Shown piece by piece: positions 47,165 through 60,433 of a stretch of 64,000 nt of DNA. Source of the stretch: Methylomarinum vadi. Its GTDB lineage: Bacteria; Pseudomonadota; Gammaproteobacteria; Methylococcales; Methylomonadaceae. The stretch lies in contig NZ_JPON01000001.1 in assembly GCF_000733935.1 (NCBI RefSeq), positions 3,608,623 through 3,672,622 on the forward strand, written 5' to 3'. Position 1 is the stretch's first letter. Each line of letters opens with the position of its first letter. The notes below the pieces were generated by a model that was given only the letters and a program-made list of their open reading frames with translations, was not told where the DNA came from and did not search any database. The position numbers and the translations under genes were made by a program.

Positions 47165-47310
47165 ATTATGCAGCGCCTTCGTTGATTTTTTTGTCTTTCT
47201 TCGCAGCTTATCCCACGCGCGGACACGTATTTTACGGTCACTCAAAAACCAAGGGAAGAACAAAAACGTAGCCATTTTTACCACGTCTGATTTATACTGA
47301 TTAAACGATA

Positions 47311-47488
47311 AGGTGCTTCGGTCCGCATTTGTGTACCGAAGTTAAACGGGAAGTCCGGTGAGATAGTTGTCTATCGATTCCGGCGCAGCCCCCGCTGCTG
47401 TAAGCCTGATGAATCGTCCTGATGCCACTGCGCAATTTGTGTGGGAAGGTGGACGACTTCAAATGACGGTAAGCCAGAAGACCGGCCT
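47311..47488 (+). promoter_or_regulatory. Cobalamin (B12) riboswitch
   Basis: The conserved elements appear in order: AGGTGCTTCG start (47311), ACGGGAAGTCCGGTG, CCGGCGCAGCCCCCGCTGCTGTAAGC (in pieces 47380-47405), GCCACTG (47424-47430), GGGAAGGTGGACGAC and the B12-box AAGCCAGAAGACCGGCC (47471-47487). It lies 128 bases upstream of cbtB and should repress the cobalt/corrin operon when adenosylcobalamin is abundant. Confidence 0.93.
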
Positions 47489-47615
47489 GATCGAATGTAT
47501 GGTTGCCGACTCGGTGGGAGAGCGCAAGCAGGAGACCTTCTCGTAATCCGTCTCTGTACGCGTCATTTTCCTATCCAGTCTGCTCCCGAAATCCACTTTG
47601 TTCGAGGAGACTGTC

Positions 47616-47795
47616 ATGTTTTTTCAATCCACGTTTTCCCATTTGGCTACCGCGCTCGATGCGCGCGTGATCGCCGGCCTATCCATGATGTTGTTTGGCG
47701 CAGCAATGGTGCTGGCCGTCGGTTTTACGCCGCTTGCCGAAGTGCACAATACGACCCACGACACCCGTCACGCCACCGGCTTTCCTTGCCACTGA
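47616..47795 (+). CDS. cbtB: Cobalt transporter subunit CbtB
   Basis: 59 residues from ATG 47616, behind GAGGAG. One membrane helix (VIAGLSMMLFGAAMVLAVGF) and a metal-binding His-rich end (HNTTHDTRHATGFPCH), exactly the CbtB layout. It follows the B12 riboswitch and overlaps cbtA (TGATG), so the two form the predicted cobalt import unit. Confidence 0.9.
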   Translation: MFFQSTFSHLATALDARVIAGLSMMLFGAAMVLAVGFTPLAEVHNTTHDTRHATGFPCH

Positions 47796-48529
47796 TGGGC
47801 CTGTTTAAGTCTCTATTGTTGACAGCCGGCATTTCCGGAATTGCCGCGGCGATATTATTGTCCCTGATGCAAATGCTATGGGTCACGCCGTTGATCTTGG
47901 AAGCAGAGACCTTTGAAGTCGGCCTTTCGTTAGCGTCCGATATATCAGCCGACGCCATTGCCGGTCATGAACATCCTGACGAAGCCTGGCAGCCCGAGGA
48001 CGGCTGGCAGCGAACGCTGGCGACCATTAGCAGCAACATCGTCATGGCCATTGGCTTCGCCCTGATGTTGACGGGCGCCTATTGCTTACGCAGGCCTTCG
48101 CGCTGGACCGGCGGCCTGTCTTGGGGCTTGGGCGCTTACGCGGTGTTTTTCGTAGCGCCAAGCTTGGGGCTGCCGCCGGAATTGCCCGGCACCGAGTCCG
48201 CCGAACTGGTCGCTCGCCAATATTGGTGGCTGGCGACAGTTTGCGCGACGGCCGCCGGCTTGGGATTGTTGTTTCTGCAAAACCATCAGGCCTTAAAGCT
48301 GGCCGGCGCCTTGTTGATATGGCTCCCGCATGCGATAGGCGCGCCGCAACCGGTCGTCGCGGCAAGTCTGGCGCCGGCGGCCTTGGAAGCGCAATTCATA
48401 CAGGCGACCGCAGTCAGTAATTTGCTGTTCTGGCTGGTTTTGGGCGGTTTGTCGGCGGCGTTGGCGATTCGTTTTCAGCCGAAAAAGCAAAATCCACTTT
48501 CGCCCGCGAAGGAGAGCGCACATGGCTAA
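47795..48529 (+). CDS. cbtA: Cobalt transporter subunit CbtA
   Basis: 244 residues with five or six membrane helices and the CbtA stretches (SGIAAAILLSLMQMLWVTPLILEAE; SWGLGAYAVFFVAPSLGLPPELPGTES). It starts by sharing bases with the cbtB stop and overlaps cobM by eight bases. It should import cobalt for corrin synthesis. Confidence 0.92.
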   Translation: MGLFKSLLLTAGISGIAAAILLSLMQMLWVTPLILEAETFEVGLSLASDISADAIAGHEHPDEAWQPEDGWQRTLATISSNIVMAIGFALMLTGAYCLRRPSRWTGGLSWGLGAYAVFFVAPSLGLPPELPGTESAELVARQYWWLATVCATAAGLGLLFLQNHQALKLAGALLIWLPHAIGAPQPVVAASLAPAALEAQFIQATAVSNLLFWLVLGGLSAALAIRFQPKKQNPLSPAKESAHG

Positions 48530-49301
48530 GGTCTGGTTTGTCGGCGCCGGCCCGGGCGACCCCGAATTGATGACCGTCAAAGGACAACGCTTATTAGCTC
48601 AAGCCGGCGCGGTGTTGTTTGCCGGTTCTTTGGTGAATGAAGCGGCCACCTTGTACGCCCCGGCCGGCTGCCTGATTCGAGACTCCAAAGACATGACGCT
48701 AGACGACATCACCGCATGGCTGATCGAGCAATCCCGCCAGCATGAAACCGTCGTCCGCTTGCAAACCGGCGATCCCTGCCTTTACGGGGCGTTGACCGAA
48801 ATGGTGAGGCCGCTGGATCAGGCCGGCATCGCCTGGGCGGTAGTACCCGGCGTTTCCTCTGCCTTCGCAGCGGCGGCTGCGGCCGGGGAAACCCTGACCT
48901 TGCCGGAAGTCACTCAAACCGTGATCTTGAGCCGGGTCGCCGGGCGCACGCCAATGCCGTCCGGGGAAGAACTGGAAGCCCTGGCTGCTCATCGCAGCAC
49001 CTTATGTCTTTTCCTGTCGATTACGCTGCTGGACAAGGTGCAAAAAGCCTTATCGGCCGCAGGTTGGCCGGAGCATGCCCCCATATTGGTGGTGCAAAAA
49101 GCCAGTTGGCCCGGTCAGGAAAAAATCGTTCGCGGCACTTTGCAAGACATTCGAGAGCGTTGCCGCGCCGAAAAAATCAACAGCCAGGCTATGATTATCG
49201 CCAGCCCGGCGCTCGGCGCTCGCGATTGGCCCGAGATTCAGCATTCCAAACTCTACGATGCCGGTTTTTCGCATCGCTTTCGCAAAGCCACGAAAACATG
49301 A
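48522..49301 (+). CDS. cobM: (Cobalt-)precorrin-4 C11-methyltransferase
   Basis: 259 residues of the CobM/CbiF type, SAM-dependent C11 methylation of the ring. Features are FVGAGPGDPELMTVKGQRLL at the N-terminus, the LQTGDPCLYGALTEM loop and VVPGVSSAFAAAAAAGETLTLPEVTQTVILSR. The ATG lies within the end of cbtA, and the stop overlaps cbiX by ATGA: strong coupling. In view of cbiD and cbiG nearby, the substrate is probably the cobalt form. Confidence 0.94.
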   Translation: MAKVWFVGAGPGDPELMTVKGQRLLAQAGAVLFAGSLVNEAATLYAPAGCLIRDSKDMTLDDITAWLIEQSRQHETVVRLQTGDPCLYGALTEMVRPLDQAGIAWAVVPGVSSAFAAAAAAGETLTLPEVTQTVILSRVAGRTPMPSGEELEALAAHRSTLCLFLSITLLDKVQKALSAAGWPEHAPILVVQKASWPGQEKIVRGTLQDIRERCRAEKINSQAMIIASPALGARDWPEIQHSKLYDAGFSHRFRKATKT

Positions 49302-50149
49302 ATCCAAACTTACAGAAACAAACCGTTTTATTGGTCGGCCACGGTTCGCGCGAAGCCTCTGGCAATCAGGAAATTCTTGCCTTCGCCGACGCATGGCGAC
49401 AACGCCAACCGCAGCACCATGTCGAAGTCTGCTTCATCGAATTTGCCGACGTGCTGCTGGACGACGGCCTGGATACAGCGGCGCAACGCGGCGGCCAAGT
49501 CGTGGTCGTGCCGTTGATTCTAAACGCCGCCGGCCACGTCAAAATGGAAATCCCCGAGCATATCGAACATGCGCGTTTACGCCATCCAGCGGTCGAGTTC
49601 ATCTATTGCCGGCATCTGAGTGCTTGCGACGAAATCCTGACCGCGATGAAGCGCAATCTCAGCAAAGCGATGCATGCCTTGGATGTGCCGGACCCGCGCA
49701 ATACCGGCGTCATCGTGTTGGGGCGCGGTTCGTCGGACCGGGTCGCTAACGGCGAAGTCGCCAAAATAGCGCGCTGGCTGTACGAAGAAACAGATCATGA
49801 TCTGGTCGATATCGCCTTTACCGGCATCACCCACCCGCGTTTGGAATCGGTGGTGCAGCGCCAGATCAAGCAAGAGATGCGGCAGATTGTGGTGTTGCCG
49901 TTTTATCTGTTCACCGGCACTTTGATCGAACGCATACGCCGCCAAGTGGAGCGGCTGCAAAGCCAGTATCCGCAGGTGAACTTTACGCTCGGTCATTATC
50001 TCGGTTTCGAGAACGAAATCTATGATTTGCTGGAGCAACGCATCGCGGAAGCCACTACCAACACCCAACCAATGATGATGGAATGCGACGGCTGCAAATA
50101 CCGCGAATTCGCCGCCGATCATGGCCACGGTCATCATCACCCTGCTTGA
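49298..50149 (+). CDS. cbiX: Sirohydrochlorin cobaltochelatase CbiX
   Basis: 283 residues: two chelatase halves, beginning TVLLVGHGSREASGNQEILAF (catalytic His) and VIVLGRGSSDRVANGEV in the second half, a long-form CbiX arrangement. The tail HGHGHHHP plus an MECDGCKY segment may store cobalt or carry a metal cluster, as in other CbiX. It inserts Co2+ early, which defines the cobalt-early route. Translationally coupled to cobM. Confidence 0.92.
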   Translation: MNPNLQKQTVLLVGHGSREASGNQEILAFADAWRQRQPQHHVEVCFIEFADVLLDDGLDTAAQRGGQVVVVPLILNAAGHVKMEIPEHIEHARLRHPAVEFIYCRHLSACDEILTAMKRNLSKAMHALDVPDPRNTGVIVLGRGSSDRVANGEVAKIARWLYEETDHDLVDIAFTGITHPRLESVVQRQIKQEMRQIVVLPFYLFTGTLIERIRRQVERLQSQYPQVNFTLGHYLGFENEIYDLLEQRIAEATTNTQPMMMECDGCKYREFAADHGHGHHHPA

Positions 50150-50158
50150 AAACGCCTT

Positions 50159-50821
50159 ATGAACAATATCGTTACCGAACAACTGACCGATGCCGGTCGT
50201 CGAATCGAACACGACTCCTTTGCCATCGTCGATGCCGAAGTCGGTTCGCATGCCTATTCGATTGATGAATGGCAAGTGGTGCGGCGGATGATCCACGCCA
50301 CGGCCGACTTCGAATTCAACGGTTTGACGCAGTTCTCGCCGCAGGCTGTAACCACAGGGGTGCAAGCGCTATTAAGCGGTGCGCCGATTGTGGCAGACGT
50401 GGAAATGATTTGCGTCGGTTTATCCAAGCCGCGCCTGAGTCATTTTAACGTGAGCACCCATCAGTTCATCGCCGACGAAGATATCATCGCTCAGGCCAAA
50501 GCAGAAAACAGCACCCGCGCCGTACAAGCCATGCGCAAGGCGCAAGGCTTGAATTTGCTGGATGGCGGCATCGTCGCGATCGGCAATGCGCCGACCGCGT
50601 TGCTGGAAGTGGTGCGCATGGTGCGGGAGGAAAATCTGCGGCCGGCCCTGGTCATCGGCATGCCGGTCGGTTTCGTGTCGGCCGCCGAATCCAAGGCGCT
50701 GCTCAGTGAAATCGAAACCATACCCTGGATCGTCATCGATGGCCGTAAAGGTGGTTCGACCTTAGTGGTGGCGGCCATCCATGCCTTACTGGCTTTGGCC
50801 GAAGCCCAACAAGCAAGATAG
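50159..50821 (+). CDS. cobH: Precorrin-8X methylmutase (CobH/CbiC)
   Basis: 220 residues; moves the methyl group from C11 to C12 to give (cobalt-)hydrogenobyrinate. Landmarks: RRMIHATADFEFNGLTQFSP with the catalytic His, VADVEMICVGLS, NAPTALLEVVRMV and GMPVGFVSAAESK. Nine bases separate it from cbiX. Confidence 0.94.
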   Translation: MNNIVTEQLTDAGRRIEHDSFAIVDAEVGSHAYSIDEWQVVRRMIHATADFEFNGLTQFSPQAVTTGVQALLSGAPIVADVEMICVGLSKPRLSHFNVSTHQFIADEDIIAQAKAENSTRAVQAMRKAQGLNLLDGGIVAIGNAPTALLEVVRMVREENLRPALVIGMPVGFVSAAESKALLSEIETIPWIVIDGRKGGSTLVVAAIHALLALAEAQQAR

Positions 50822-50834
50822 GCAGAGTCGAAGC

Positions 50835-51935
50835 GTGGAGCGTAAAGCCAAAGGCACCCGCAAAGGCTACACCACCGGCGCATGTTCCGCGGCAGCGGCG
50901 CGGGCCGCGACTTTGGGCCTATTGACCGGCAGCGTGCCGGAAACGGTCGAATGCGAATTGCCGAACGGGCAACGGGTCTGGTTTAGCGTTAGCGATGCCG
51001 TTTGCGACGGCCTATCGGCGCATGCGGTGGTGATCAAGGATGCCGGCGACGACCCGGACGTCACCGACAAGGCCCCGCTGACCGCAGACCTGCGCGTGCT
51101 TCCCGAGGCGACGGGTTCGGTGGTTTTGAAAGGCGGTGACGGCGTCGGCACGGTCACGATGCCGGGCTTGGGTTTGGAAGTCGGCAGTCCGGCGATCAAC
51201 CCGGTGCCGCGCCGTAATATCGAAGCCAACGTCCGCGCCGCCGCGGGACCGTTGCTGCGGCAAAAGGGCTTGGAAGTAACCATTTCGGTGCCGGGCGGTA
51301 AAGAAATGGCGAAAAAAACCCTGAATGGCCGATTGGGCATAGTCGGCGGGATTTCCATTCTGGGCACGACCGGCATCGTGCATCCGTATTCGACGGCCGC
51401 GTTTCGGGCCAGCGTGATTCAAGGCATCGAAGTGGCCGTGAACCAGGGCCAGACTGTCGTGGTATTGACCACCGGCGGCCGCACCGAAAAGTTTACGATG
51501 CGCGAGTTGCCCGAACTGGCCCCGGCCTGCTTCGTGCAAATGGGGGATTTCCTGAAATACGCGCTGGACACCGTGGTCAAGTGCGGCATTCGTCACGTGG
51601 TGATCGGTGGCATGGTCGGCAAGCTGACCAAGATCGCCCAAGGCGAAACCATCACCCATGCCAACCGCAGCGCGGTCGATACCGGTCTGTTGGCGAACAT
51701 CGCCGCAGAAATCGGCGCTCCCCCGGCCGTTTGCCAGGAAATCAGCCAATCGGAAATGGCCCGTTACGCCAGCGAGCGCATGGAAGAGTTGGGCTTGATC
51801 GATCCGTTTTACCGGGCATTGGGCCGGCGCGTCATCGCCACGTTACGCGATCGCTATGCCGGACAATTTCATTTACGCATATTGATGTGCGACTTCGATG
51901 GCAACAAGCTGGCCGAAGTCGCTGGAGAACTTTGA
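50835..51935 (+). CDS. cbiD: Cobalt-precorrin-5B C1-methyltransferase CbiD
   Basis: 366 residues from GTG 50835 (VERKAKGTRKGYTTGACSAAAA), placed there because the family begins with this stretch and it is 13 bases after cobH. GGDGVGTVTMPGLGLEVGSPAINPVPR and GTTGIVHPYSTAAFRASV are typical. CbiD belongs to the cobalt-early pathway and has no aerobic homologue. Confidence 0.93.
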   Translation: MERKAKGTRKGYTTGACSAAAARAATLGLLTGSVPETVECELPNGQRVWFSVSDAVCDGLSAHAVVIKDAGDDPDVTDKAPLTADLRVLPEATGSVVLKGGDGVGTVTMPGLGLEVGSPAINPVPRRNIEANVRAAAGPLLRQKGLEVTISVPGGKEMAKKTLNGRLGIVGGISILGTTGIVHPYSTAAFRASVIQGIEVAVNQGQTVVVLTTGGRTEKFTMRELPELAPACFVQMGDFLKYALDTVVKCGIRHVVIGGMVGKLTKIAQGETITHANRSAVDTGLLANIAAEIGAPPAVCQEISQSEMARYASERMEELGLIDPFYRALGRRVIATLRDRYAGQFHLRILMCDFDGNKLAEVAGEL

Positions 51936-51936
51936 G

Positions 51937-53235
51937 ATGATGGAACCCTGCCGAATCATCGGCGTATTGGATAACGGCAGCCGCAGTTTGACAGCCGACG
52001 CCTTGGCGCACCTACGGCAGGCCGAGGTCGTGATCGGCGGATCAAGATTATTGGCTTTGTTGGCCGATGCGATAGCGCCAAGCGCCGAACGCCGAGACCT
52101 GACCGGGCAATTAAGCCAAGTGCCGGTGTGGATAGACGACGGCCAACAAGCCGGCAAAAAAGTCGTGGTCGTCGCGACCGGCGACCCCTTATGCCACGGC
52201 ATCGCCCATTTTCTGATCGGCAAACTCGGCCGCGAGCGCCTCGACATTCTGCCCAACCTGTCCATGCTGCAACTGGCCTGTGCGCGTTTCGGGCTGGCGT
52301 GGCAGGAAGTGCGCATCGGTTCGGTGCATAGCCGCGATGTCGGCGAATGGCTTTGCGGCGCCGATGCCCGGCATGGTTTGTATCGTCTGTTGCAACTATT
52401 GCGTCAATCGCCGTTGACGGCGGTGTTGACCAGCCCGGACAACACGCCTGACCGCATCGCCCGGATGCTGCAATTGGAAACGCTGTCCGAAGATTACGAC
52501 ATCGCGGTGCTATCCCGGCTGATGCAAGCCCAAGAAGCTAACTCGGGCTGGCTGCCGATCGATGAGGCCGCAGGCCGCCGTTTTGACTATCCTAATATCG
52601 TGTTGATTCGGCGCAAGCCGGTTAAGAAAGAAGCGCTATTCGGCCTGCCAGATCAGCGCTATCAACAACGCAAGCCCGATAAAGGTCTGATCACCAAACG
52701 CGAAGTGCGCGCCGTGTCGTTGGCGCGGATGGCGCTGAAGCCGAACAGCATTGTCTGGGACATCGGCGCCGGTTCCGGCTCGGTCGGTCTGGAAGCCGCG
52801 CGATTGTGCCCGCAAGGTCATGTCTACGCGATCGAGAAAAACGCCGAGGACGCGGCCATCGTGACGGCCAACCGGAGCAGTTTGCGAGTCAGCAACTACA
52901 CGTTGCGCCTCGGCCGCGCGCCGGACGGCCTGGATAGTTGGCCGGATCCCGACGCGGTATTCATCGGCGGCTCCGGCGGGGAATTGCGCGATTTGATCGT
53001 ACTATGTCTAAACCGCATGCGCGACGAAGGCCAGTTGGTGATGAACTTCGCGACGCTGGAAAACCTGGCTGCGGCCACAGAAGTCTTAAAAACGACCGGC
53101 GCCGACTGGGATGTGGTGCAGCTGCAAGCCGCGCGCAGCAAACCGATATTGAATATGAACCGCTTGCAAGCCGAAAATCCGATCTGGATCGTTTGCGCGC
53201 AATGCGGCGCGTCACAGGAAAGCAAGCATGAATGA
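51937..53235 (+). CDS. cobL: Precorrin-6Y C5,15-methyltransferase (CbiE-CbiT fusion, CobL)
   Basis: 432 residues. The N-terminal CbiE part (IIGVLDNGSRSLTADALAHL; VVVATGDPLCHGIAHFLIGKLG) and the C-terminal CbiT methyltransferase part (ITKREVRAVSLARMALKP, IVWDIGAGSGSVGLEAARL) are fused as in CobL. The start ATG follows the cbiD stop by one base. Its 3' end (SKHE-stop) originally overlapped the start of cobI; a short palindromic element now separates the two. Confidence 0.94.
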   Translation: MMEPCRIIGVLDNGSRSLTADALAHLRQAEVVIGGSRLLALLADAIAPSAERRDLTGQLSQVPVWIDDGQQAGKKVVVVATGDPLCHGIAHFLIGKLGRERLDILPNLSMLQLACARFGLAWQEVRIGSVHSRDVGEWLCGADARHGLYRLLQLLRQSPLTAVLTSPDNTPDRIARMLQLETLSEDYDIAVLSRLMQAQEANSGWLPIDEAAGRRFDYPNIVLIRRKPVKKEALFGLPDQRYQQRKPDKGLITKREVRAVSLARMALKPNSIVWDIGAGSGSVGLEAARLCPQGHVYAIEKNAEDAAIVTANRSSLRVSNYTLRLGRAPDGLDSWPDPDAVFIGGSGGELRDLIVLCLNRMRDEGQLVMNFATLENLAAATEVLKTTGADWDVVQLQAARSKPILNMNRLQAENPIWIVCAQCGASQESKHE

Positions 53236-53368
53236 ACATAACGCGATAACGTGCGCACAAATAGGATGTGCCGACGTTAGGAGGCGCATCTGTCGCGATT
53301 ACCGATGCGCTTCACGGTGTTCAGCACATCCTATGAGTGTCTCAGGAAAGCAACCATGAATGAACATA
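53215..53368 (+). repeat. MITE-like palindromic element with duplicated flank between cobL and cobI
   Basis: A 26-base sequence (CAGGAAAGCAA-N-CATGAATGAACATA) containing the end of cobL and the start of cobI occurs at 53215-53240 and again at 53343-53368, with one mismatch. Between the copies is a dyad ATAGGATGTGC (53261-53271) / GCACATCCTAT (53324-53334) with an inner dyad GCGCATC / GATGCGC. The first copy encodes an abortive cobI start that ends after a few codons. Confidence 0.7.
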
Positions 53369-54144
53369 GAACAGGTCGTCTGTTAGGCGTGTCGTTAGGG
53401 CCCGGCGATCCCGGCCTGATCACCCGCCGCGCCTGGGAATTTTTGCAACGACGAGATTGCTGTTGGACTTATCCTGTCCGGCGCAAGGACGCCGACAGCC
53501 ATGCCTTGCAAATCGTCTTGTGCGGCGGTTTAACGCTACCGCCACAACATGCGGCGTTGATCTTTCCGATGACTCACGATACAGATATTTTGGCCGGCTA
53601 CTGGCTGCGCGCAGCCGAGACCGTGTTGGCGCATTTGCACAGCGGCCGGGACGTGCTGTTTCTGGTCGAGGGCGACGCCTCCACTTACTCGACGTTCGGT
53701 CATCTGGCCCGCACCGTGCAGGCTTTAGATGCCGCCGTCGCGATCGAAACCGTGGCCGGCGTGCCGTCTTTCAACGCCGCCGCCGCGCGGGTGGCGATGC
53801 CGCTGGCCGATACCGACGAGACCGTCGCGATCATACCGGCCGGTTATGGCATCGGCATGATCGAACGTTTGCTGGACGATTTCGACACGCTGATATTGCT
53901 GAAGGTCAAACCCTTATTAGACGACATTATCGACTTGTTGCAACGCCGCAATCTGCTAGCACAAGCAGCATTCGTCGAGAAAGCCGGCGCGCCGGAAGAA
54001 CGGGTCGAGCGAGATGTCCAGCGTCTGCAAGGCGCAAAGGTCAATTATCTATCCCTGCTATTGATCCGAAATCCGCACCGGCAGCGCGGCGAATTGATTC
54101 GCGGCTGCCGTAAGAAAACATCAACCACTGAATTGGAGTCATAA
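53356..54144 (+). CDS. cobI: Precorrin-2 C20-methyltransferase (CobI/CbiL)
   Basis: 262 residues from ATG 53356 with AGGAAAG upstream. N-terminal RLLGVSLGPGDPGLITRRAWEFLQ is the SAM-methyltransferase first motif, followed by LVEGDASTYSTFGHLARTV and VAGVPSFNAAAARVAMPLAD. It makes precorrin-3A or its cobalt form. The 5' flank is a duplicate of the original cobL-cobI junction. Confidence 0.92.
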   Translation: MNEHRTGRLLGVSLGPGDPGLITRRAWEFLQRRDCCWTYPVRRKDADSHALQIVLCGGLTLPPQHAALIFPMTHDTDILAGYWLRAAETVLAHLHSGRDVLFLVEGDASTYSTFGHLARTVQALDAAVAIETVAGVPSFNAAAARVAMPLADTDETVAIIPAGYGIGMIERLLDDFDTLILLKVKPLLDDIIDLLQRRNLLAQAAFVEKAGAPEERVERDVQRLQGAKVNYLSLLLIRNPHRQRGELIRGCRKKTSTTELES

Positions 54145-54149
54145 GCACC

Positions 54150-54890
54150 ATGACCGAACCCCGTATCGTGCTGGTCGCGATCACTAAACACGGTTTGTCG
54201 CAAGCGCTAAGGCTTGCAGCACAATTACCCGAAGCGCATTTGGCGGTTTCGGAAAAATTCGCCGCCGATTTGCCCGATATCGCCAATCCCATCGAAATAC
54301 TGTCAGGCGCGTTGCGCGCGAATATCGGTAGGCTGTTTGAAAATTACGATCAGTTAGTGATGTTTATTTCGCTGGGCGCGGTGGTTAGGCTTATTGCACC
54401 GTATCTCAAATCCAAGGATGAAGACCTCGGGGTGGTCGTCATCGATGATGCCGGGAAATTCGTGATTCCGGTGTTATCCGGCCATGTCGGCGGGGCCAAT
54501 GCCTTTGCCGAACGCTTGGCGGCGCTGTTGGATGCGCAAGCGGTATTGACCACGGCTTCCGATGTCGGCAAAACCATCCCGGTGGATATTCTGGGCCGGG
54601 AATTGGGCTGGCGGGTCGAGGCGCCGAAAATCAACATCACCCGCGTATCGGCGCATGTCGTCAACGAAGAGCCGATTGCCCTCGTGCAGGAGGCCGGGGC
54701 CAAGAACTGGTGGTCGCGGCCGACGCCGCTGCCCGGCAATATCCATCTGTTCGAGCGTTTCGAGGAGGTCGATCTCGACCGTTATCGCGCGGTGCTGTGG
54801 GTTACCCGACGCGACATCGAGCCCGGCTGCTGGGACAAGCTCGCCGAACGTCTGGTGGTGTATCGTCCGCCGCTGGGGCAGGATTCATGA
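54150..54890 (+). CDS. cbiG: CbiG N-terminal and central domains (cobalt-precorrin-5A hydrolase)
   Basis: 246 residues. The central motif FISLGAVVRLIAPYLKSKDEDLGVVVIDDAGKFVIPVLSG (in parts) and HVGGANAFAERLAALL match CbiG, which opens the lactone and releases the C2 unit after ring contraction. The usual C-terminal CbiG domain is a separate gene that starts within its stop (ATGA). Confidence 0.9.
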   Translation: MTEPRIVLVAITKHGLSQALRLAAQLPEAHLAVSEKFAADLPDIANPIEILSGALRANIGRLFENYDQLVMFISLGAVVRLIAPYLKSKDEDLGVVVIDDAGKFVIPVLSGHVGGANAFAERLAALLDAQAVLTTASDVGKTIPVDILGRELGWRVEAPKINITRVSAHVVNEEPIALVQEAGAKNWWSRPTPLPGNIHLFERFEEVDLDRYRAVLWVTRRDIEPGCWDKLAERLVVYRPPLGQDS

Positions 54891-55282
54891 AAGTCATACT
54901 GGGTCTGGGCTGCGACCGCGATACCTCGACGGCTACGGTGCAGAGCGCGGTCGAGCAGGCTTTGGCGCTGGCGGGCTTGGACAAGCGCGCCGTCGCCGGC
55001 CTGGCGACCATTGACAAGAAAAGCGACGAGACCGCGATTTTAGAGTTAGCGCAGATGTACGGCTGGCCGTTGCAGTTTTTCAGCGCGCAACAACTGGCGC
55101 GAGTCGACGTTCCGAATCCGTCGGAAACCGTGCGCAAATACATGGGTACGCCCGCGGTGGCCGAAGCCGCCGCGCTGTTGGCGGCCAATGCGACTATGTC
55201 GGCCTTATTGTTGGAAAAACACAAATACCGCGGCGAGGACGGCAAAAACGCCACGGTTTCGATAGTCAACTTGAGAGAGTGA
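54887..55282 (+). CDS. cobE: CobE / CbiG C-terminal-domain protein
   Basis: 131 residues (VILGLGCDRDTSTATVQSAV; LATIDKKSDETAILELAQMYG; AEAAALLAANATMSALLLEKH), the small CobE/CbiG-C fold. Its ATG overlaps the cbiG stop, and its stop overlaps the cobJ start (TGATG). The pair with cbiG represents a split CbiG. Confidence 0.9.
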   Translation: MKVILGLGCDRDTSTATVQSAVEQALALAGLDKRAVAGLATIDKKSDETAILELAQMYGWPLQFFSAQQLARVDVPNPSETVRKYMGTPAVAEAAALLAANATMSALLLEKHKYRGEDGKNATVSIVNLRE

Positions 55283-56622
55283 TGAACAAAGGCAAAATTT
55301 TATTAGTCGGTTTCGGCCCCGGAGCGCCGAAGCACATGAGTCAGCGGGCCCTGGACGCCATCGCCGAGGCGGATGTGGTGATCGGTTATTCCACTTATAT
55401 CAAACTGGTGCAGGACCTGCTCGACGGTAAGGAAGTGATTCGTAAAGGCATGACCGAAGAACTGGACCGCAGCATCGAGGCTTACGAACATGCCCGTCTG
55501 GGTAAAACGGTCGCATTGGTATCGTCGGGCGACATCGGCGTTTACGGCATGGCGGGACCGACTTACGAAGTGCTGTTCCAGGCCGGCTGGACGCCGGATA
55601 GCGGTATCAGCGTGGAAGTGATACCCGGCGCGACGGCCTTGAATGCCTGTGCGGCGCTGGTCGGCGCGCCGCTGACCCACGATTTTTGTTCGATCTCGTT
55701 GTCGGATCTACTGACGCCGTGGCCAACCATCGCCCGTCGTTTGGAGGCCGCGGCCCGAGCCGATTTCGTCGTCGGACTGTACAACCCGAAAAGTGGCTGC
55801 CGCACCCAACAAATTGTCGAGGCGCAACGAATCTTGCTGTTGCATCGCCGGGCGGATACGCCGGTGGCGATCGTCAAATCCGGTTACCGCCGCCGTCAAT
55901 TTATACAAATGACCACACTGGCGCAAATGGCCGATTGCGAGATCGGCATGTTATGCACGGTATTGATCGGCAACAGCAGCACCTTCGTTCGCGAAGGTTT
56001 GATGGTCACGCCGCGCGGTTATGCCAATAAATACGATACATTGACCGGCGAAACCAGAAACGGCGAGCAGGCCGGCCGCTCGCTGAGCATGGGACTGACA
56101 GGCTGGCATGCCTGCGTGCGCCGTCATATCGGCGAGCATCCCGAGGCGAACTTACGCGATATCGCCGGGCATTTCGACGCGCCGTTAGGCGAAATATTGG
56201 CTGCCGTCGCGGATGCCGGAGAGGACGATGAGGCCGGTGTGATGAAAAGCAAGCCGATAGCTGAGGAGCAGTTGGATGAAGTGCTGGCTGCGGCGAGCAA
56301 CTGGGGGCGACTGCGGGCCGTGGTGCGCAGTCATGGCGCCATCGCCGAAATCCTGTTGGAAGCGCAAAATCTGACCCGGAAAAACACATGGTTAAATTTA
56401 ACCAACGAGCATTGCCATTTGCATGTCGATACCGCTCGCATCGCCGGCGCCTGGTTTTTCTGTCAAGGCGACAAACAACAGGGATTGTATTTGACCGATG
56501 CTCACGGAGAAGCGATTTGTTCGTTGCTGCTGGTCAAAGCGGGCGGTCAATTCGACCAGAATGCCCTTGAGTGCTTCCAGCAAGCGATCGGACAATTCGG
56601 TCAAACGCCAAGATTAGACTGA
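55282..56622 (+). CDS. cobJ: Precorrin-3B C17-methyltransferase fused to a HutX/ChuX-like domain
   Basis: 446 residues, about 200 more than the core enzyme. Residues 1-245 are CobJ/CbiH: ILLVGFGPGAPKHMSQRALD, LVSSGDIGVYGMAGPTYEV, VIPGATALNACAALVGAPLTHDF. The rest (about 265-446) aligns by eye with ChuX/HutX heme proteins: NWGRLRAVVRSHGAIAEI, HCHLHVDTARIAGAWFF and LYLTDAHGEAICSLLL correspond to WGN...VHTADVILEF, H-x-L-I-E region and FFNKEGSAMLKIFL of ChuX. The enzyme contracts the ring; the extra domain may bind a tetrapyrrole. Start chosen at ATG 55282, overlapping the cobE stop. Confidence 0.88.
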   Translation: MNKGKILLVGFGPGAPKHMSQRALDAIAEADVVIGYSTYIKLVQDLLDGKEVIRKGMTEELDRSIEAYEHARLGKTVALVSSGDIGVYGMAGPTYEVLFQAGWTPDSGISVEVIPGATALNACAALVGAPLTHDFCSISLSDLLTPWPTIARRLEAAARADFVVGLYNPKSGCRTQQIVEAQRILLLHRRADTPVAIVKSGYRRRQFIQMTTLAQMADCEIGMLCTVLIGNSSTFVREGLMVTPRGYANKYDTLTGETRNGEQAGRSLSMGLTGWHACVRRHIGEHPEANLRDIAGHFDAPLGEILAAVADAGEDDEAGVMKSKPIAEEQLDEVLAAASNWGRLRAVVRSHGAIAEILLEAQNLTRKNTWLNLTNEHCHLHVDTARIAGAWFFCQGDKQQGLYLTDAHGEAICSLLLVKAGGQFDQNALECFQQAIGQFGQTPRLD

Positions 56623-56754: not shown

Positions 56755-56809
56755 CGAGTGTAAATGCCAAGCTTTGCCGAAGACGCTATTTCAAAACAAG
56801 AGAAGATCG

Positions 56810-57157
56810 ATGAATGACATGACTATTCCCGAAAAACCCAAACTGGGCGATTACAAACGCCACTTGCTGGTCTGCACCGGCCCGCGTTGTACGCAAAACG
56901 GCGAATCGCAAGCCTTGTTCGACAGCCTGGGGGCAAAGTTCAAGGCGGCGGGCCTGGATAAGGGCGCGTTACGGGTCAAACGCACCCGCACGAACTGTTT
57001 CGCCACCTGCAAGGCGGGGCCCATCCTCTGCGTACAGCCGGATGGCGTTTGGTATTACAACGTCACCGAAGCCAATCTCGACCGCATCATAGAACAGCAT
57101 TTGCTCGGCGGCGTACCGGTGGATGAGCTGATTTTTCATCGCGGCCCCGGTTACTGA
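56810..57157 (+). CDS. [2Fe-2S] thioredoxin-like ferredoxin
   Basis: 115 residues from ATG 56810. Four Cys in the pattern of thioredoxin-fold ferredoxins: VCTGPRC near the N-terminus and CFATCKAG followed by GPILCVQPDGVWYYNV. Such proteins are often found in B12 clusters (compare CbiW). It probably supplies electrons to a step of corrin synthesis. The REP-like cluster separates it from cobJ, so transcription together with the operon is not certain. Confidence 0.85.
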   Translation: MNDMTIPEKPKLGDYKRHLLVCTGPRCTQNGESQALFDSLGAKFKAAGLDKGALRVKRTRTNCFATCKAGPILCVQPDGVWYYNVTEANLDRIIEQHLLGGVPVDELIFHRGPGY

Positions 57158-58007: not shown

Positions 58008-58373
58008 ATGATCGAGCTCATCCCGAACGATTCTCCCAAAATTCTGGGTTTCAAGTTGACCGGTACATTGCACGATGAGGACTATCAGGCCTTCATTCCA
58101 GTTGTCGAAAAAACGCTTGCGAAGGCCGAAGGCGAAGTATCTCTCCTCGCGAAATTCGAAGACTTCCATGGTTGGGACCTGAATGCCGCCTGGGACGATC
58201 TAAAGTTTGGCGTCCAACACTACTCCGATTTTGACCGCATCGCGCTGGTCGGCGATAAGCAATGGGAAGAATGGATGGCTCGTTTATGCAAACCGTTTAC
58301 TCAAGCAACCGTAAAATACTTCGATATATCCGACGAAGAGGCCGCTTGGGCTTGGTTACGAGAAAGGCCTTGA
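58008..58373 (+). CDS. SpoIIAA-like (STAS-fold) protein
   Basis: 121 residues. MIELIPNDSPKILGFKLTGTLHDEDYQAF and the closing SDEEAAWAWLRER fit the SpoIIAA-like family of small cytoplasmic proteins, whose founding member binds a kinase. The phosphorylatable Ser of true anti-anti-sigma factors is not obvious. A GAGGCAAG ribosome-binding site precedes ATG. A group II intron lies directly downstream. Confidence 0.8.
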   Translation: MIELIPNDSPKILGFKLTGTLHDEDYQAFIPVVEKTLAKAEGEVSLLAKFEDFHGWDLNAAWDDLKFGVQHYSDFDRIALVGDKQWEEWMARLCKPFTQATVKYFDISDEEAAWAWLRERP

Positions 58374-58396: not shown

Positions 58397-60433
58397 GTGG
58401 ACGCAGGCTCCTGATTTTACGTTAGACAACATCCAATCGAGACTGACCGTTCGCAGTAATAGCAATAAATCTAGCGGGTTAAAGTCCCGTCCGGGGAATT
58501 GTCCGTACGCCCCGGTAGTATGAGGAAGCGGCGCTGTGGTAACACGGGGTCGTGAGTTTCCAAACAGCAAGAGAGTAGGCCGTAACGTAAGTGAACCTAT
58601 GAGTAGCCTCGTAAACGAAGTGGAGAAGCTGACCCTGTGGTCAGAAGGGGAAGGCCGTTGGATAGGTGCTGAAATAACGGAAGTGGCATTTATCGACTCC
58701 CGGGGTAGCAGGGTCGGCATGTTCTCGAAGATTTATTGCCCAGTGCTGGAGACCCGTTGCAGTGGTGGGGAGGCCATCGACTGGGGCGTATAAGGAAACG
58801 AAATCGCACCGGACTGTAACGGGAGTCGGAGGGGTTCATAGTATCGTCTAAGGCCGAGGGACAACATAACCCCGGTTGAGAGAAGGAACCCTACTTTGTT
58901 CACGCAACCGAAGAGTGGAAGGACAGGAGATTGCGAAATGCTAGAAACTCCGGAAAATCTCAGGACACTACAGAGGAAGCTCTACATCAAGGCCAAGCAA
59001 GCACCGGCCTATCGCTTCTATGCACTATATGACAAGATGTGGCGGGAAGACATCCTCCTGTTTGCCTACCGTCTTGTCCGGGCCAACAAAGGAAGTCCTG
59101 GAATCGACGGGATGAATTTTGAGGACATAGAGCAGAAGACTGGGATAGATAAGTTCTTGCTGGAACTGGCTCAGGACCTGAAAGACAAGACCTACCGTCC
59201 GAATCCGGTACGGCGCGTCATGATTCCGAAGGCGGATGGCACTATGCGTCCGTTGGGAATTCCGACGATCCGTGATCGTGTGGCCCAAATGGCAGTGAAA
59301 CTGATTATCGAACCTATATTCGAAGCGGACTTTTGCCCGAACTCCTATGGATTTAGGCCGAAGAAATCCGCCCATGATGCGGTGGATGAGATAACGAATG
59401 CACTCCATCAGGGTTATACCTGCGTTATTGATGCAGACCTGTCGAAATACTTCGATAGTATACCTCACGCCAAACTGATGGCTGTGGTAGCCGAACGCAT
59501 CGTTGATGGTGCGGTTCTGCATCTCATTAAGCAATGGCTGAAAACCCCGGTGATTAGTGAGGACAAGGATGGTGTCAAAAGGAACGTAGGTGGTGGCAAA
59601 GGCAATAGCTTGGGAACGCCGCAAGGTGGCGTCATTTCACCTTTGCTGGCGAACTGCTACTTGCATGTACTCGACCGGATATGGGAACGGCATCATTTGT
59701 GCTGGAAATTGCAAGCACGGATTATCCGATATGCAGATGATTTTGTGGTGATGTGTCGGGGCAAAGCAGATATGCCCTTGGCAACGGTAAAGCATGTACT
59801 AGAGCGACTGGATCTCACGTTAAATGAGACCAAGACGCACATTGTCGATGCCAGAAACGAGCCTTTTAACTTACTGGGTTTTAAAATTAGGGTCGGCAAA
59901 AGTTGGAAAACGGGCAAGTCTTATACGCATAGGAGCCCGTCTCCAAAATCGTTGGCGAAAATAAAAGATCGTATAACGCAATTGACCGCGAGAGAACGGA
60001 CACCGATACCACTTGAGCATGTTATAGGCAGTGTGAATAGCGTGCTTCGTGGCTGGGTGAACTACTTTCATTATGGTAACTCCAGTCAAGCGCTGGAGAG
60101 GGTAAAATGGCATACAGAAGAGCGTATGCGAACACACCTGATGAAACGCCACAAGGTAAAGGACCGGGGGGCTGGTTTAGGCCGCTTTCCCAGTCAGCAG
60201 CTTTATACGAAATATGGGCTATACAAAGTTCCGACAACGGCGGGCTGGAAGAAGGTGCATGCCCTGGTGTGAAGAACATCGGAAAGCCGTGTGCGGGAAA
60301 ACCGCACGCACGGTTTGATGAGGGAGGGCAGGAGAAGCTGACTATGGCAAGGCTATTGAGGCACCGCCGGACGAAAGAGGCGGAAACGGATAGGCCAAGC
60401 CTGTGGAAAGCGGAACCCTGTTCTCTACTCTAC
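58397..60433 (+). mobile_element. Group II intron with encoded maturase
   Basis: About 2 kb of structured RNA around a reverse-transcriptase/maturase gene. The 5' region (58397-58937) has the long, GC-rich paired elements expected of domains I-III but I cannot place its first base; GTGGACGC at 58397 is the best guess. Domain V is clear at 60283-60316: AAAGCCGTGTGCGG-GAAA-CCGCACGCACGGTTT-type hairpin. Domain VI follows to about 60433 (CTCTAC). No gene is interrupted: it sits between the SpoIIAA-like gene and the M23 gene. Confidence 0.85.
58938..60272 (+). CDS. ltrA: Group II intron reverse transcriptase/maturase
   Basis: 444 residues from ATG 58938, preceded by ACAGGAGA (a TTG at 58896 would add 14 residues). 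RT motifs: GSPGIDGMNFEDI, PLGIPTIRDRVAQ, NSYGFRPKKSAHDAV, DADLSKYFDSIPH, LGTPQGGVISPLLANCYL and the active-site IRYADDFVVM. A maturase domain (RGWVNYFHYGNSSQALERV) follows. I see no C-terminal HNH endonuclease, so spread may rely on replication-linked retrotransposition. The frame is intact and the host unlikely to have inactivated it. Confidence 0.94.
   Translation: MLETPENLRTLQRKLYIKAKQAPAYRFYALYDKMWREDILLFAYRLVRANKGSPGIDGMNFEDIEQKTGIDKFLLELAQDLKDKTYRPNPVRRVMIPKADGTMRPLGIPTIRDRVAQMAVKLIIEPIFEADFCPNSYGFRPKKSAHDAVDEITNALHQGYTCVIDADLSKYFDSIPHAKLMAVVAERIVDGAVLHLIKQWLKTPVISEDKDGVKRNVGGGKGNSLGTPQGGVISPLLANCYLHVLDRIWERHHLCWKLQARIIRYADDFVVMCRGKADMPLATVKHVLERLDLTLNETKTHIVDARNEPFNLLGFKIRVGKSWKTGKSYTHRSPSPKSLAKIKDRITQLTARERTPIPLEHVIGSVNSVLRGWVNYFHYGNSSQALERVKWHTEERMRTHLMKRHKVKDRGAGLGRFPSQQLYTKYGLYKVPTTAGWKKVHALV

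Follow-up and report, generated by a model that had tools for sequence, protein, structure and literature searches.

A complete HutX/ChuX-type unit at the C-terminus of the ring-contraction methyltransferase CbiH/CobJ in Methylomarinum vadi and its relatives

CbiH/CobJ, the ring-contraction methyltransferase of cobalamin (B12) synthesis, is represented by the family TIGR01466 and by the structures of Thermus TT0207 (PDB 2zvb) and CobJ (PDB 3nut). Additions to its C-terminus are known, since Priestia megaterium CbiH60 is said to be a CbiH with a C-terminal accessory Fe-S domain. ChuX/HutX proteins (PF06228; PDB 2ovi, 6u9j, and 5exv), on the other hand, stand alone and belong to heme utilisation operons, while HemS, ChuS, and PhuS (PF05171) are two-domain heme proteins. 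Here, we describe a CobJ from Methylomarinum vadi to which a HutX-type unit of about 170 residues has been added at the C-terminus, such that a fold of heme utilisation is joined to a B12 enzyme within a cbi operon.

In the window, which is the whole stretch of 64,000 nucleotides of M. vadi DNA that was analysed, a single forward-strand frame at 55282..56622 encodes a protein of 446 amino acids. Based on profile matches and a predicted fold, we assign this protein as the cobalt-early ring-contraction methyltransferase CbiH/CobJ with a whole HutX/ChuX-type unit at its C-terminus. The CobJ core (55282..56091, residues 1 to about 270) has the tetrapyrrole methylase fold and matches TIGR01466 over residues 6-248 with 306.6 bits, above the curated cut-off of 246.35. 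Close to the end of the core lies a G-x-SL stretch that also occurs in the Thermus, Manganitrophus, and Leptospira enzymes, which have no HutX tail. The HutX unit (56095..56601, residues about 272-440) consists of an N-terminal helical part (56095..56214, residues 272-311) and a beta lobe (56242..56598, residues 321-439), in which a His379-Leu-His381 motif (56416..56424) lies on a predicted strand. Among the best 80 of 239 relatives, the closest named ones are Methylobacter proteins with 75-76% identity, which makes a methanotroph the probable source of the genome. In database records, precorrin-3B C(17)-methyltransferase is the only name given to the gene, for example on a plasmid of Methylomonas sp. 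LL1.

The fusion gene is part of a forward-strand operon headed by a cobalamin riboswitch (RF00174, 112.3 bits; 47294..47504), as found by a search that covered the M. vadi window. A cbtB gene, recognised by eye, is followed by cbtA, a proposed cobalt transporter (47795..48529, start approximate); cbiF/cobM (48522..49301); the cobaltochelatase gene cbiX (49298..50149); cbiC/cobH (50159..50821), for which related models match but none above its cut-off; cbiD (50844..51935, start approximate); cbiET (51898..53235); cbiL/cobI (53305..54144); and cbiG in two genes, one for the N-terminal and middle part (54150..54890) and one for the C-terminal part (54887..55282), whose stop codon overlaps the start codon of the fusion gene by 1 base. 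Behind the fusion gene lies a gene for a thioredoxin-like [2Fe-2S] ferredoxin (56774..57157, start approximate; PF01257, 25.8 bits against a cut-off of 24.8). The cobalt-early partners of CobJ, namely cbiX, cbiD, and cbiG, are present, and the route of the operon is the cobalt-early one as described in PMC7242693.

The HutX/ChuX assignment is supported by profiles, profile-profile comparison, and the predicted fold. ChuX_HutX (PF06228) matched residues 325-417 with 35.9 bits against a gathering score of 25, and a HemS profile matched residues 322-416 with 31.9 bits against a cut-off of 24, while across the relatives the PF06228 profile matched 29 of 30 tails at E 0.1. Both the predicted fold and profile-profile comparison indicate that the fusion carries the entire unit, down to the three N-terminal helices of ChuX/HutX. 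Since the helices alone compared weakly with HemS-type helices, with a probability of 9 for long tails and 0.6 for the short tails that some relatives carry, we base the helix assignment on the fold and on the alignment of the full unit, which is colinear (probability 93). The short tails are nonetheless homologous to the helical segment of the long ones (profile-profile probability 98.7, E 2e-16). The fusion of CobJ to a HutX/ChuX-like domain, proposed in a preliminary description from the sequence by eye, is thus confirmed by the profile search and structure prediction of the C-terminal region. The same description had set this architecture apart from the Fe-S extension of CbiH60, and the distinction holds, as both proteins bear a C-terminal accessory domain, but Fe-S families gave no match in the fusion protein in our profile search and no cysteine reaches 80% conservation in the tail alignment (61 rows, including the wrong row L128, which is a CobJ-CobK fusion from genome G126).

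A scan of 84,980 species genomes returned 239 relatives, and the best 80 of these plus the M. vadi locus gave 81 loci, which because of this selection are not a random sample. A long tail was present in 31 of the 81 loci and a short tail, consisting of one helical segment, in 49; the last (L036) is cut and cannot be called short because the locus ends at a contig end. Relatives that keep only the tail helices are mostly betaproteobacterial, and largely the same cbi order surrounds the long and short forms as far as the contigs extend. We found no separate HutX gene beside short-tailed cobJ in the loci, which reach at most 6 kb to either side. At two loci (L039 and L062), a single long frame contains both the CbiG and the CobJ match and carries a short tail.

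Within the family of M. vadi, 101 genomes hold 38 cobJ places in 37 genomes, and the tail occurs at 30 of these places in 29 genomes, in one frame with cobJ at all but one. The exception is G016, a genome of the same genus as M. vadi, where the cobJ frame (L187) is split into frames of 209 and 270 residues. The remaining 8 cobJ places are CobJ-CobK fusions with CbiJ matches in the same frames; these likewise have a second C-terminal domain, but it is CobK with no HutX match, and the gene neighbours differ at the two loci read (L184 and L185). In a sample of 369 genomes from the class, cobJ was present in 41 and the full tail in 21 of those 41, with E 7.2e-51 or better and from 14 families. Three weaker tail matches in this sample were set aside on our own reading: two are HemS-like frames (L106 and L107), and the third (L108), which matches the helices only, is a false hit that resembles a zinc-binding protein. 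A phylum sample (378 genomes) added three families outside the class, two with strong matches (f206 and f226) and one with a weaker match (f207). At all 14 outside-class places read, one of them cut (L175), CobJ lies in the same frame; further weak tail matches were seen in f218 and f222, among others. The fusion had been described as a new architecture, and it does seem new, as we found no paper describing a CobJ-HutX fusion in the open-licence literature, judged by titles and the starts of abstracts; it is, however, widespread rather than peculiar to this genome. In M. vadi, the fusion is the sole ChuX_HutX match of the genome. Of the 21 genomes with the fusion in the class sample, one (G010) has further PF06228 matches and the other 20 have none, PF06228 serving here as the sole gauge of heme uptake.

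We built a CobJ tree of 97 rows, in which 11 untailed rows stand apart from a single group (support 96/93) made up of all tailed rows, namely 58 long, 26 short (counting L036), and 2 diverged ones. This tree leaves out some short and near-identical rows, its bootstrap had not settled, and many of its deep forks are open. The short label needs three changes on the tree, and one short group clusters with the M. vadi row at 93/90; because this group is nested, we infer that the lobe was lost in betaproteobacteria. A single capture of the HutX unit with later loss of the beta lobe would be the simplest reading. A branch with modest support (86/49) also separates the 60 tail domains from 12 HemS/HutX domains.

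The tail is 13-14% identical to ChuX/HutX. The histidines H65 and H98 of ChuX, which we take to be heme-pocket residues, correspond by eye to Arg349 and His381 of the tail, respectively, and the tail has an extra histidine, His379. In the tail alignment without the wrong row, 56 of 60 tails have His381 and 55 of 60 have His379 (exceptions among L031, L109, L123, L179, and L180), so that few positions of the lobe are as well conserved as these two. Among 12 aligned HemS/HutX domains, these being the HemS-type pieces out of 29 in the alignment that are long enough to show the positions, a histidine occurs at the 379 position in 0 and at the 381 position in 5. The N-terminal half of the two-domain proteins can carry an arginine there instead: in a HMMER alignment counted by hand, His381 aligns with HemS R102, which PMC11773379 describes as an axial residue that acts via water, H196 lying on the opposite side. 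In two tails (L179 and L180), the lobe is shortened and diverged, lacks both histidines, and has no ChuX_HutX match.

We found that the lobe is under purifying selection, which is looser than in the core: median dN/dS was 0.17 for the lobe and 0.044 for the core, a roughly fourfold difference over 42 pairs that are not independent (28 of the 31 long genes, in pairs within set limits of synonymous divergence). This looser constraint would suit an oligomerisation or docking module, a fold with a vestigial pocket that joins CobJ molecules to each other or to other Cbi enzymes, as would the divergence of the L179 and L180 tails and the short forms that have the helical part alone. Such a module would leave little place for the conservation of His379 and His381, which argues against it, and we regard this explanation as rather unlikely.

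We propose instead that the HutX tail serves the ring-contraction step as a tethered carrier of a tetrapyrrole, a tentative reading to which we give a probability of roughly 45%. The model would be HutX, a carrier in the cytoplasm from which a partner enzyme receives a metal tetrapyrrole; according to PMC12670364, HutX carries heme to HutZ and HutW. By analogy, the tail may bind a cobalt tetrapyrrole and pass it to or from the methyltransferase site. This tetrapyrrole would be either cobalt-factor III, which comes from CbiL, or cobalt-precorrin-4, the product of the step, and His381 would be a likely cobalt ligand, with His379 and conserved arginines nearby. The labile intermediate could in this way be shielded, for example in methanotrophs that run the route in air. 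The complete fold, the single tailed group, the recurring cbi order, the purifying selection, the conserved histidines, and the rarity of a second PF06228 match all favour a carrier, while the arginine at the ChuX H65 position, the higher dN/dS of the lobe, and its frequent absence speak against it. Since relatives, most of them betaproteobacterial, share the operon but have no beta lobe, the lobe would be an aid and not a catalyst, and since it is absent in most of the 81 loci and diverged in L179 and L180, it is not essential everywhere. Tetrapyrrole binding, its handover, and the identity of the ligand are what we infer, and heme itself is a possible ligand of the tail. If the lobe binds cobalt corrinoids, the HutX fold would gain a non-heme ligand and the ring-contraction enzyme a built-in carrier, and intermediate channelling in B12 synthesis would become directly testable.

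A heme-binding tail could also act as a sensor that adjusts CobJ activity and so keeps tetrapyrrole synthesis balanced between its heme and B12 branches. ChuX, ChuS, and HutX bind heme 1:1 (PMC10404700), and a pocket-side histidine is kept in the tails. We nevertheless consider a sensor unlikely, given that the M. vadi operon is already under a cobalamin riboswitch and that the lobe is missing from 49 of 81 loci.

The ferredoxin gene of the M. vadi operon recurs in the relatives. In 24 of the 27 long loci with room, no more than 1.5 kb separates it from cobJ, and L010 is a 25th, which the distance rule missed as its ferredoxin lies 63 bases inside the frame end. Such proximity could point to a redox domain, with a lobe-held heme passing electrons, perhaps from the [2Fe-2S] ferredoxin, for a reductive ring contraction, as the Fe-S centre of CbiH60 is thought to do. 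A ferredoxin gene is also found, however, near 30 of the 43 short-tailed cobJ genes with room, where the lobe is absent, which makes this role improbable; near some cobJ loci, such as several from Accumulibacter, it is absent.

The presence of the tail is closely tied to the lack of a CbiJ/CobK reductase. PF02571 (CbiJ/CobK) had no match in the M. vadi genome at E 0.01, nor in the fusion protein at E 1. Across 80 genomes chosen for having cobJ (80 of 88 candidates, with eight tailed ones left out), CbiJ/CobK was found in all 28 untailed genomes and in 0 of 52 tailed ones (49 long, 2 diverged, and 1 short), with a Fisher p of 3e-22 that does not account for kinship. Untailed here means without a tail match: the C-terminus was read in 11 of the 28, CobK lies in the same frame in 8 family genomes, and G508 was counted without a look-up of its cobJ part. 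Among 50 genomes reached through the loci (10 long, 39 short, and 1 cut), CbiJ/CobK was present in one, the long-tailed Spongiibacter thalassae (L033). Over the 130 entries of the two sets, CbiJ/CobK is found in 1 of 102 tailed genomes (one cut) and 28 of 28 untailed ones, although the two sets may share species, e.g., L008, which is the fusion-bearing Methylotuvimicrobium buryatense 5G, and G010. This exclusion marks a coherent CbiJ-less pathway in need of another reductase. The missing CbiJ reductase has already been noted for archaea and Methylocaldum marinum S8 in PMC10974252; in the open-licence literature, we found no link between this gap and the CobJ tail.

The exclusion raises the prospect that the lobe itself supplies the missing cobalt-precorrin-6A reductase. 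It would then be a corrinoid reductase that has gone unrecognised, dependent on NADH or ferredoxin, and by taking on the CbiJ/CobK step it would make CobJ bifunctional. The lobe would then sit where CobK sits in the CobJ-CobK fusions of related genomes, at the same end of CobJ, and HemS is reported to degrade heme anaerobically with NADH (PMC11773379). However, the short-tailed genomes of the locus-derived set have neither lobe nor CbiJ, and CbiJ was not found in 4 of 7 CobJ-bearing controls (Thermus composti, Haloferax volcanii, Sulfolobus acidocaldarius, and Methanosarcina acetivorans), and the Thermus cobJ that was read has no tail. Because of these genomes, the lobe is probably not a substitute for CbiJ, and we hold the bifunctional enzyme to be very improbable; the absence of CbiJ/CobK seems to characterise the pathway lineage. 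An extra conserved operon gene was also considered as the missing reductase and rejected: clustering of unassigned frames gave four groups, found in 6-9 of the 81 loci, and on our own reading these are genes resembling cbiB, cobD/cobC, and cobQ, together with an antisense frame.

A different C-terminal extension, of about 230 residues and with no Pfam or NCBIfam match, is present in a Leptospira cobJ (L192, 9001-10494); we found no likeness between it and the HutX tail. The operon of this locus includes an FAD-dependent oxidoreductase and a DUF3209 gene. In the M. vadi window, the region downstream of the operon encodes a SpoIIAA-like protein (58008-58373) and holds group II intron parts at 58481-58715 and 60282-60433 (within 58481-60433), between which lies a frame that we read as reverse-transcriptase-like (58896-60272).
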